Source of the DNA: Nannochloropsis salina CCMP1776
Taxonomy: Eukaryota > Sar > Eustigmatophyceae > Eustigmatales > Monodopsidaceae
Assembly: GCA_004565275.1 (NCBI GenBank)
Contig: SDOX01000008.1
Span: forward strand, 748,597-812,596
Direction: 5' to 3'
DNA: 64,000 nucleotides
In this document: one piece after another, positions 2,951 through 8,830 of the stretch
How positions within the stretch are numbered: position 1 is the stretch's first letter
Layout of the letters: each line of letters starts with the position of its first letter
The notes under the pieces: generated by a model
What the model was told of the DNA's origin: nothing
What the model saw: only the letters and a program-made list of their open reading frames with translations
The model's database searches: none
Position numbers and translations under genes: made by a program

Positions 2951-3544
2951 CCCCACGTCCACGTCCTACGCGGTCCAAAGTGCGCGAATGTTGTCAGGAA
3001 CTGGTTGAAACCAATTTGGCGGGCATCTTCGCTGTTATTTGGTGACTTGAGCGAGGCGCGGGTCGCTGCCTGTCAAAGTATTAATCGGATGGGTGTCTGG
3101 GGTCTCCCCGGTGGTTTTGGGCGCGGGGGGAGGCTATCACCCGGCATATCACCGCAGTCACCGCAGTCTTGTGCGACCCCGCGGTGTGAAGAGCGTGATC
3201 GCTTGTCGTGAACGTCAATGTGGCAGGGAGTATGGAGCATGGGATCCATAAAGCGGAGGGCCATGTGGGTATGCGGTTCCGGGGGCGTGACCTTGACGTG
3301 ACTCTCGAGGCAGATGTAGGGACAGGGTAAAGTCAGGGGACGCAGGCCGGTCATGACGCTCATGCAATCTTAAGCGTTCGGGCGCACACTCACTCAGTCC
3401 CTTCACTAATTAATTCTCAAGGGCGGCAACCAGCCGCGCTTAATTGGCGTCTGAGGTAGGGCTTCGGAGAAATTATCCTGCAAACGTAGTAGAGAGCAGT
3501 GGGGTCGGCTTACACCCCGGCGCTCTTTTGAAGTACCTTCAGCC
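2951..3544. promoter_or_regulatory. Shared divergent promoter region between TMEM184-like and Zn2Cys6 genes
   Basis: About 590 bases separate two divergent start codons, so both promoters must lie here or overlap. No coding exon is supported. A nine-base direct repeat, ACCGCAGTC twice, lies near 3151-3168, and a CCGG...CACCG pair sits just before it. Zinc-cluster factors usually bind CGG triplets, so these could be sites for the neighbouring regulator, but that is only a guess. Confidence 0.4.
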
Positions 3545-5614
3545 ATGCTTCCGTCCGTGCACCCCGGGGCCGAATTTCGCCGGACATGCACTGCCTGTAG
3601 GAGTGCGAAGGTATGTCAATGATGGCTTGCAAGGGCTGGTGGAATTGGTGTGAAGTAGCACGATGAATCATGCGGAGCGAGTGCAGGCGGTGCCGCACTG
3701 AGTGTCTGGGCGGACACCGGGAACCATGTTGCATCACGTGATGACGACGAGGAAAGACGGAAAGCCAACACGCGCCTGCCGGGCGGTCGTTGCTCGCGGA
3801 GTCCTGACACGTTTCATGCATTCCTTCTCTCTCCCACTCTGGATTATAGGTAAAATGCGACCGGCAGGCCCCAATATGTGGCAGGTAATCAAGCAACGGT
3901 TGCACTCTCCGTCGTTGCCTTCCCTGTCTTCTCCTCCTCTTGTTCTCTCCTTCCCTCCCTCTTCCTCTCCTCCCCCTGCGTATCCCTCCTCTACCCTCCC
4001 CCTTCAGGACATCGCCTCCTCCTCCCATTGCTCCCCCATGACCCTGCCCGAAGGCCCCCCTCTTCGCTCATGCTGACCTCCCACCCTCCCACGTCCCATA
4101 GATGCCGTCGCCTTCAACTTCCCTGCGTGGAGCAAGTACGGAAACAGGGCCGACCCGCCCTGTTAAACTACCCGGAGGCGCCTGCGGGCGGTGGCGGCGT
4201 CCGACGTGGAGAAGGGAGCACTTTGAGCATGGGCTCAGACGGATCTAGTTCCTCGTCGGGAATGTCTGCGCCGCGGGAAGCGGGGGATGGGATGAACCGG
4301 GAGGCCACGGGGGCCACGGGGCAGGAAGGGGCTCCTGACGAGAGGCGGAGTATTCGGTCCAGAAGTCGGGGCCTGGAGAGGGAGGGCGGGGGCGGGGGAG
4401 GGAGACTGCCCGAGGCCAAGATGGTCCTTGACGGATTTCTGGTCGACCCGGGAGCCGTGGGCCCTCAAACGATGACGGACTTTATTTTGGCGTCTTTTGA
4501 AAAAGTCCGCGAACAAGGCGGCTTGGACCTGGGGAAGACATTGAGTGCCCTCCGGACTTTGTCGCTGCAGGCGGAGTGTTTCAATTTGGAGCTCGCGCGC
4601 ACGCTCGTCAACCCCTTGACCACCCAGCTGGGCGTTCCCCCGGCCGAGTGGGAGGAGGTGATGAGGAGGGAAGGGGCCGTGGAGGTGCCGGAGACCTTGG
4701 AGGACCTGGGGGTGAAGCTGGAGGGGGGCGTGGCGTTCGGGAGGATCCCTCGACGGCTGTCGGCGTTGGACGATCGAGTCTCGGCGGTGGCGTGCACCGT
4801 GTCGCTCGTTGGAGGGGCCTGCCGAGTCCTGGTGAACGACCGATTCAAGGACACCTTTTGGAGCGCCTCGGAGATCCTTTCGCGCCTGTCGAAGGAAGTC
4901 GCGGGGCCCCCCTTCCTCTTTGCGGCCTTAGTGGCGGTGGAGGATCGTTTGGACTTCTTGGAGGCGATGACGGCCTACGTCTTTGGACCCCCCACCCAGG
5001 TGGAGCTCTCCCAGATAGTCAAGGTCCGGGACGCGGGGGAGCAAACCTTCCTGGCCATGATCCGCCTCCGCACCGCCACCTTGGCGGGGGGGACGTATTT
5101 GGCGACCATGCTTTCTATTTCCCCCGCGCCGTCTTCCAAATACATCCGGGGGGGAAACAAGGAAGGTGTAGGGGAGGAAGGACTCACGTGGTTGGGATTG
5201 AATCAGATGGAGGCCAAAGCCCGCGTGCGCCCGCCCTCGGCCGTTTTGGCGCCAGGACAGGGTCTTGGGAATGAGTACGAGGCCTGCAATATCCAAACGG
5301 TCCGAGTGCAGGAATTCCTCCGGGGGGAGGGCGGGAAAGGGGGGTGGAGGGGAGGGAGAGGAGGGGAGGGAGGATGGGGGGGCGCGGCCGCAGTGCCGTC
5401 TATGCCATCCTTTCATCACCAACAACCACAACAACAGCAACATGAAGAGCAACCACCCTTGGAGGGAGAAGAGCAAGAGCAGATGCATTACTCACTCTCC
5501 GGCGCGGGCGTGGCACCTGCAGAGAGGTCAACGCGCGAAAGCCGAGGTGGCGGGGGGGCCGTGGGGCAGTATGGCAGCAAAGTGTATCATGGAGAGAGGG
5601 GAGTATCGGGATGA
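3545..5614 (+). CDS. Zn(II)2Cys6 (fungal-type zinc cluster) transcription factor with PAS-like region
   Basis: Three exons: 3545-3610, 3850-3884 and 4102-5614, giving 537 residues. The zinc cluster appears only after splicing. Exon 1 ends in CTACRSAK, the 35-base exon 2 encodes VKCDRQAPICG, and exon 3 opens with CRRLQLPC. The resulting cysteines are C15-x2-C18-x6-C25-x6-C32-x2-C35-x6-C42, the exact Zn2Cys6 pattern, with the usual basic residues between. Donors are GTATGT and GTAATC; acceptors are TATAG and CATAG. Around residues 267-375 there is a PAS-like segment (VLVNDRFKDTFWSASEIL), as seen in fungal regulators such as the ERT1/AcuK group. The tail has Gly-rich and Gln-rich runs. The protein is expected to bind DNA in the nucleus. 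A zinc-cluster regulator of lipid accumulation is known in Nannochloropsis gaditana; whether this is the same gene cannot be decided here. Confidence 0.87.
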
Positions 5615-6721: not shown

Positions 6722-8830
6722 ATGACCTCTACAACAACTGAGCTGGCGCAGCCAGCGCCTGCCCACCCCCGTGCCCAACGGCTTACAAAGCTCATCGCAT
6801 GGTGCAAGAAAACCTCGCCCAATTTCATGATTAGGGAACAATTCGTGGGTTTTAAAACCAGTACCGATGGGAACGTGACGGCAGTTGCCCTCAAGGACAT
6901 TCCCGCTGACATGCACCTGATTCGTGTCACACCGGAGCTCATGTTCTCGGCCCGCGATCTGAAGCGGAAGTGGCGCGCGGTTTACAACGAGATTGAGAGC
7001 AAAATTCGACGCTATACGGACACATGCATGGCTGGCTTTCTCCCCGGCACCGAGTAAGTTCTCAGGGGAGCCATGTGGGGATTTGGCCCGAGTTTCCCCC
7101 TTTAAAGCCCCTTTTGAATCCCCTTTGTTCTCTTGCAACCCCTCACTCGCCTTCTGTAGAGCTGAGGAGCCTGCTACGACGATGGCCCTCTCTTTCGCCT
7201 TGCTTTTGGAGATGGGCGATCCTGAGTCTAAGTGGAAGCCCTATTGGGAAAGTTTCCCGGAACATTTGCCCAACATCTTCGATTTTGACGGCGATTACTC
7301 CCACTTGGAAGGCTCTCCCTGGAGGGAGCAGCTGGAAAAGAAGCAAGAAGCGATGCAACACATCTTGAAAGAGATCATTCCCCCCATTTTGGCAAAAATC
7401 AAGGGGAAACTTGGTGTAGACGATGTCGGTAAGTTAAATGGGGTCAGATATGAAAAGAGGAGGTTTGTTCTCTGCGTTCTATTTCCTGCCTAGCTGGAAA
7501 AAAATACGCCCGATGGGTGGCAATACCCTGCTTACCCTGGAAACAAGAAATTGAGGATCAGCCCCTTCTTCGTGATGCAACCGCAACAACACAGAGGGGA
7601 CGTTGAAACGCGCCTACGGGCTCTGGCAATCGCGGCAATTGAAGGACGACGTCCACAACAAGCGGGCGCAGTACCTGGTGCCGGTCCTGGATTTGATCGA
7701 CGGGTACGCTGGCAAAAAGAAGCGGGTGGGAATGTCGGCATTTTTATCTTTTTCTCTGTCCCCATGTGGTACCTGGAGAGAGGGCGGGCGCATTGGCACG
7801 CATGGTTGTCGGACCTGACCACTCAACATTCCCTTCCTCCCCCCTTCCTCCCTCCTTTCCTCGTCCCCCCCACACCATACTGGCCAGGGAAAGCGACAAA
7901 CTGAGCAATGTGATCGTGGACGATGGGCCCGGGTCCACAGCTATGCACGTGGAGCTCGTGTTGAAGAGCAGTCGGAAGATCGAAGCCGGCGAAGAGCTGA
8001 GCCAGATGTATGATAGCTGCAGTAATGCCTCTTACTTGCACTGGTACGGCTACATCACGGACAGCATGGTGTTTGGAAATCTCTCCCACAAGACCTTCGT
8101 GACCACCGCGCAACTGACCGCGACGGCGTTGGAGGCCGTGGAGGAGGAGGCGGCCCGGGAGGGGAAGGAAGGGACGGAGGAGAGGAAGAAGGAGGTGGAG
8201 GCCATGGCGGCGCTGAAAAAAGATCTCTTGTCTCGGATTGCTGGGAAGGAAAGGGTGGCCGTGCGTCGATCGCTGGAACTCACGCACCGTTCGGAGGTCT
8301 TTGAGGAAGCGGCCTTTGTCCTGACCGCCATCGCCAAGATCGCCCTCTGTCCCTCCCTGGACCCCCTGGAGAAAGTCCGACGGTCTTTATCTTCCAACGA
8401 CATCAAGGACATCCTGAAAAACGCGGACGAGATGTTGACGGGCATGGATGGAGAGACCTTGGCCCCGGTGGCGGTGGGGGCGGTGGAACGGATCCTGTGT
8501 CAGCTCCGGCACGGTGACTCTTACCTGCGGGATATGGTCGCCTTGGACAAGTCGGGGGAGAAAGAGGCGAACCGACTCCTGATCAAAGTGCGCATGAGCG
8601 AGAAATTCCTCCTGTTGCGGGCCCGGGCGGAGGTGTGCAAGAAATTAGGCCTCACGGACCGGCATGAACGCCCCCGGGTATGTGATAACTGTGCCACTTT
8701 CACCCATTTGCGTGCCTGTGGGCATTGTGGCACCACTGCCTACTGCTCCCGGCGTTGCCAAGTCATGAAATGGCGCGAGCACAAGAAAGCGGTCATCCCG
8801 ACGGCCACGACGTCTTCGGTCGCGGCGTGA
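6722..8830 (+). CDS. SET-domain protein (LSMT/SETD6-like) with C-terminal MYND zinc finger
   Basis: Four exons: 6722-7053, 7160-7428, 7595-7703 and 7888-8830, giving 550 residues. Every junction is GT-AG and keeps frame. The N-terminal half reads like the SET fold of Rubisco-LSMT/SETD6-type lysine methyltransferases: IREQFVGFKT, then ALKDIPADMHLIRV, then LVPVLDLIDG, then KIEAGEELSQMYDSCSNASYL. The usual Asn-His pair after the LVP-D motif is replaced by Asp-Gly, while the later tyrosine is kept, so activity may be altered. A helical middle follows, and a MYND finger closes the protein (CDNCATFTHLRACGHC, then YCSRRCQ...H). In SMYD enzymes MYND interrupts SET; here it follows it. The expected role is protein lysine methylation or a partner-binding role. 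The substrate is unknown. Confidence 0.85.

Follow-up and report, generated by a model that had tools for sequence, protein, structure and literature searches.

From the perspective of its gene content, the window (the whole 64-kb stretch of DNA that was analysed) harbours a three-exon gene on the + strand, with further predicted genes on either side. The features that the text refers to are the following, with positions counted along the window:

292-1266, + strand: neighbouring gene, DOT1-like methyltransferase (E 6.9e-11)
1620-2501, - strand: neighbouring gene, organic solute transporter Ostalpha-like protein (E 1.9e-19)
3545-3610, + strand: exon 1 (66 nt), from the start codon to K22, with C15 and C18; an upstream in-frame stop lies at 3452
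3611-3849, + strand: intron 1 (239 nt, GTATGT..TTATAG), phase 0, between K22 and V23
3850-3884, + strand: exon 2 (35 nt), encoding VKCDRQAPICG plus two bases of R34, with C25 and C32
3885-4101, + strand: intron 2 (217 nt, GTAATC..CCATAG), phase 2, within codon 34
4102-5614, + strand: exon 3 (1513 nt), with C35, C42, a linker, the conserved domain, a low-complexity tail and the stop codon
4124-4156, + strand: GRP element, C42-x4-R-x2-G-R-P, at a fixed distance past the last cysteine
4463-4585, + strand: probably helical segment, residues 155-195, partly conserved in relatives
4745-5131, + strand: conserved domain, probably PAS-like, residues 249-377, recognised through paralogues, leave-one-out hidden Markov models (HMMs) and profile-profile comparison to PAS
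7697-8830, + strand: neighbouring gene, MYND-finger protein (E 1.5e-6)

Joining 3545-3610, 3850-3884 and 4102-5614 yields 1614 nt that are read as a single open frame, which comprises 537 codons and closes with a stop codon at 5612-5614; the open frame of exon 3, taken by itself, extends from 3854 to 5614. The joined protein contains six cysteines (C15, C18, C25, C32, C35 and C42) that follow exactly the C-x2-C-x6-C-x6-C-x2-C-x6-C spacing of the Zn(II)2Cys6 class, and the basic face of the cluster reads CTACRSAKVKC. The exon coordinates, the junctions, the 35-nt exon, the 537-residue product and the cysteine spacing had been put forward in an earlier note made from the sequence, and all of them were reproduced by joining. 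The same note had named a profile match of the spliced product as a check, and Pfam Zn_clus (PF00172) does recognise residues 14-48 (E 7.2e-8, 32.9 bits against a cut-off of 21), while no further Pfam domain appears in the window protein at E<=10. Among proteins of solved structure, PPR1 (1pyi) is the best relative (E 1.9e-5). The R-x2-GRP element, which is here taken to be AT-hook-like, forms part of a C-x4-R-x2-G-R-P sequence that directly follows the last cysteine, with the same spacing, in 9 of the 20 zinc clusters of this genome.

The possibility that such a motif arises by chance when exons are freely joined was addressed with a free-splice control that accepts any GT donor, any [CT]AG acceptor and zero to two introns of 40-400 nt. 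Under these rules, the exact motif occurs once on the + strand of the 64-kb window, precisely at 3610/3850 and 3884/4102, and not at all on its - strand. Dinucleotide-preserving shuffles, read on one strand each, produced the exact motif in 1 of 200 cases, and in none of the 200 was it accompanied by the basic half CxxCxxx[KR]x[KR]C. These figures come from the any-GT version of the control, as a stricter donor pattern misses the real site.

Zinc-cluster factors are generally thought of as typical of fungi. Across the genome examined (26.5 Mb in 103 contigs), an exon-level Zn_clus scan at E<=1e-3 returned 10 places, seven with a whole cluster and three with a half cluster (in an array on contig C86), and the window gene was absent from that scan. 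Free-splice searches near relatives of the conserved domain and near the C86 matches brought the clusters read to at least 20, so the statement of the earlier note that stramenopile members are few does not hold for this genome. Thirteen clusters are split by introns (window, C15, C70a, C55, four in C86, C6, C42, C2, C70c and C70b) and seven lack an intron (C1, C72, C99, two on C33, C29 and C30). For the split clusters other than that of the window gene, free splicing offered up to 40 solutions, of which the simplest one whose first half is basic was adopted, with two junctions fitting equally well in C2; once joined, all 12 score above the Zn_clus cut-off. Two lone C4-C6-like matches on C40 (L048 and L032), with no other half nearby, were dismissed as clusters.

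Several of these clusters present distinctive features of their own. The array on C86, which is the window's own contig, comprises four zinc-cluster genes at its far end (L044-L046, about 12-33 kb), all of them cut at the same intron site between K and V, and the stretch with the first array gene also carries fragments of the PAS-like domain (E 3e-5 and 0.015). The unsplit zinc-cluster proteins of C29 and C30 (L041:1215-4880 on the + strand, and an open reading frame of L042 on the - strand) have an N-terminal receiver-like (REC) region, in which the phospho-acceptor Asp, judged by eye, is seemingly replaced by Glu in both. Profile-profile comparison of this region with five E. coli receivers gives a probability of 93, P 2.4e-7 and a score of 47.5 over 69 columns, compared with at most 17.4 for 100 shuffles; Pfam recognises no REC in the two proteins, Zn_clus being the only family found. 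Finally, adjacent zinc-cluster genes on contig C33 (L040, 2662-4701 and 6760-8949) have in common a repeat, TEASLPLRDGTS..PRSDVIRTW..SGKAAIHPSP, which is present in three copies in one gene and two in the other.

The paralogues also bear on the junctions of the window gene. The closest of them, on contig C15, reads RRTCTACKASKVKCDRQAPVCGR unbroken where the window gene carries intron 1, whereas its counterpart of intron 2 is present at the matching site and in the matching phase, with GRCARLRLTCVQQPRAQGRP after it. In C70a (L047), both introns lie at the window's sites and enclose a 35-nt middle exon (L047:2082-2116), so that the joined cluster, with slashes at the junctions, reads CTACRSAK/IRCSRGEPSCE/RCTKLGIACIEQVRTQGRPRK. 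The intron-1 site is common to 8 of the 13 split clusters (window, C70a, the four C86-array genes, C6 and C42). Between the window and C15, 14 of 33 cluster codons are identical, 10 differ synonymously and 9 non-synonymously, with 7, 6 and 17 differences at codon positions 1, 2 and 3, respectively. The earlier proposal of a cluster split over three exons is thereby confirmed at its junctions by C15 and C70a and, because intron sites are common to paralogues, the three-exon structure is very probably right and appears to have been inherited within a gene family.

Beyond the cluster, the protein has a conserved C-terminal domain that recurs at other loci of this genome. Searches by tblastn with the window protein detect paralogous regions at C15 (E 7.6e-26), C40, C1, C72, C55, C57 (three places), C37 and others. 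In a set of 3741 open stretches drawn from the retrieved loci, leave-one-out HMMs refound all 16 domain loci at a full-sequence E<=8.5e-5, the window gene being recovered at E 2.6e-26; in six members that were rechecked, the matched stretch was the domain, and the best other stretch scored E 0.0049 to 0.075. The probably helical segment before the domain (residues 155-195) is less widely kept, with a leave-one-out E of 0.002 for the window gene, values below 0.01 in four of the nine members tested, and weaker matches or none in five.

The domain lies beside a zinc cluster at 11 of the 16 loci. In seven of them (window, C1, C72, C55, C42, C70b and C70c) the open frame of the domain also includes the cluster, wholly or in part, and in C15, C70a, C6 and C2, which have no complete gene model, the cluster is found on the domain's strand, no more than about 1.2 kb upstream. 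By pattern, no zinc cluster was seen in the stretches read around C40, C57a, C57b, C37a and C37b. Further copies of the domain comprise a second C57 copy, one on C67 split over two frames, and the fragments in the first C86-array gene. On contig C57, two loci about 5 kb apart (L037 and L038, at about 1.264 and 1.270 Mb) encode domains that are 100% identical over 134 aa, within open frames of 761 and 388 codons, respectively, in which no zinc cluster was seen. A domain tree places C15 and C40 nearest the window gene and has one starred branch; 11 of its 13 inner branches are open, and no claim is therefore made as to how clusters were gained or lost.

As for the nature of the domain, the earlier note had described a PAS-like region at residues 267-375. 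This part of the proposal stands insofar as the region falls inside the conserved domain 249-377 and profile-profile comparison prefers PAS, and it lacks a Pfam PAS match. Judged by eye, the family pattern is PAS-like, with a G-turn, N-x-x-F, a P-E-D-R-x-x-F helix, K-x-x-D-x-x-G and two further strands. The chief rival explanation agrees that the gene encodes a zinc-cluster factor with a conserved C-terminal domain and holds that this domain is not PAS, being instead some other alpha/beta regulatory or dimerisation domain peculiar to the lineage. Such an alternative is considered possible, if rather unlikely. It draws on the domain libraries, since none of the 16 members has a Pfam PAS match above the cut-off and the four members scanned against NCBIfam have no match there. 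At E<=10, Pfam PAS families are missing from the window protein and from all nine members labelled A1; among the remaining seven, one (C70a) shows a weak PAS_9 match (E 0.24, 12.1 bits against a cut-off of 27), which speaks for PAS.

The profile-profile comparisons point in the latter direction as well. Against an alignment of 13 PAS sequences, 11 from E. coli K-12 and two LOV sequences of this genome, the family scores 23.1 (P 0.0018, probability 14.8) with 106 collinear columns. This is above five other domain alignments, which score at most 14.2 and are shallower (2-5 sequences) than the PAS set, and above 100 column-shuffled (at most 13.0) and reversed (at most 8.1) controls; such a collinear match argues against the non-PAS reading. 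An 8-sequence PAS subset scores higher than the 13-sequence set (28.7, P 2.2e-4). EvgS, in which Pfam finds no PAS, was dropped from the PAS set as a yardstick and kept for the kinase and receiver sets. When eight PAS sequences were placed singly among 60 decoys, they ranked 1, 2, 17, 19, 20, 28, 37 and 60 of 68; DgcE PAS1 came first (P 1.8e-4) and was the sole one well clear of the decoys, with DosP PAS2 second. Structural resources lend more to the rival, as the family profile finds calmodulin first in the PDB (E 0.05) and hERG PAS at E 0.68-0.96, and AlphaFold models built without an alignment have a mean pLDDT of 33.7 and 38.4, too low to show a fold. The calmodulin match covers 53 of the 131 profile positions and was taken as a local D-x-D-G resemblance. 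On these sequence comparisons, the domain appears reasonably likely to be PAS, and its PAS-like nature is regarded as supported, not proven; because no Pfam or NCBIfam PAS match exceeds its cut-off, the claim is limited to the term 'PAS-like'.

A second rival identifies the window gene with a known regulator. In the available parts of the literature, ZnCys (Naga_100104g18) is described as a factor of N. gaditana that regulates lipid negatively (PMC11122798; PMC8399792), whose lowering nearly doubled lipid output (PMC11122798), which bears out the earlier remark that a Zn(II)2Cys6 factor controls lipid in that species. That the window gene is this lipid regulator or its direct orthologue is very improbable. 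The identification draws on ZnCys being, in the available text, a homologue of the Zn(II)2Cys6 class in N. gaditana (PMC11122798), and the two are likened by that class; against it, 20 or more zinc clusters are present in this genome, which sets a low prior for any one gene being ZnCys. The least probable reading of all, for which hardly any room is left, is a decaying or non-expressed copy with unspliced introns and a joined motif that is a relic, as the long low-complexity linkers might suggest, and it is countered by the intact 1.6-kb frame, the mostly third-position differences from the C15 cluster, the paralogues with the same intron sites and the conserved domain.

The reading preferred here, held with good though incomplete confidence, is that the product of the locus is a transcription factor of the Zn(II)2Cys6 class whose PAS-like domain serves in dimerisation or sensing. 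Gal4-type factors bind CGG-type sites as a monomer or a dimer. By analogy, the six cysteines of the window protein would coordinate two zinc ions, and its basic face, CTACRSAKVKC, would read a CGG-type half-site, to which the R-x2-GRP element may add further DNA contacts. The PAS-like domain, in which no ligand-binding residues were identified, would mediate pairing, either between copies of the factor or with its relatives, and may make DNA binding responsive to a metabolite or partner. Retention of intron 1 would add V-C-Q and a stop after K22 (GTA TGT CAA TGA at 3611), and retention of intron 2 would place R and a stop after G33 (GGC AGG TAA at 3880), as read from the sequence. Since either retained intron ends the frame inside the cluster, DNA binding depends on the splicing of both. 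A broader and clearly speculative extension, considered unlikely as a whole, would see in the family a lineage-specific network in which members with a cluster bind DNA, those without one act as partners or inhibitors, and intron retention provides a second switch.

That network is modelled on the fungal AcuK/AcuM or the animal bHLH-PAS systems. AcuK/AcuM (Ert1/Rds2) are described, in the available part of the source, as combining a zinc cluster with a PAS domain in which mutations impair function (PMC12719309). The likeness to the window protein, drawn from that partial description, lies in a single protein carrying both a zinc cluster and a domain of PAS or PAS-like type. The PAS motif given there for AcuK/AcuM, G-X1-I-X3-N-X7-G (PMC12719309), is absent from all 16 domain members, including the window protein, which is therefore compared with AcuK/AcuM and not filed among them. 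Among microalgae, the accessible text of a survey lists 10 'Fungal TRF' genes in N. gaditana and one in P. tricornutum, and reports PAS in combination with bHLH, HSF and homeobox domains rather than with zinc clusters (PMC4827209). That survey and the present analysis are alike in finding zinc-cluster factors in stramenopiles, with at least 20 clusters read here. One locus of this genome (L062, contig C47) has a stretch that looks like bHLH by eye, followed by a single PAS_3 match that falls slightly short of the cut-off (E 8.4e-4; 24.2 bits, where 25.6 are required), and resembles the stramenopile bHLH-PAS combination in the accessible survey text (PMC4827209). The literature searched, mostly open-access and available in part, held no report of a zinc cluster combined with PAS in Nannochloropsis or stramenopiles.

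In this genome, a C-terminal domain that Pfam does not recognise, and that is probably PAS-like, ties together 11 of the 20 zinc clusters and represents a handle for testing state sensing or partner choice of such factors outside fungi. With the Gal4/PPR1-type factors (PF00172) the window protein has in common the cysteine spacing, the basic face and a Pfam score over the cut-off, whereas it differs from them in a cluster distributed over three exons, in the GRP element placed at a fixed distance after the sixth cysteine and in this C-terminal domain.
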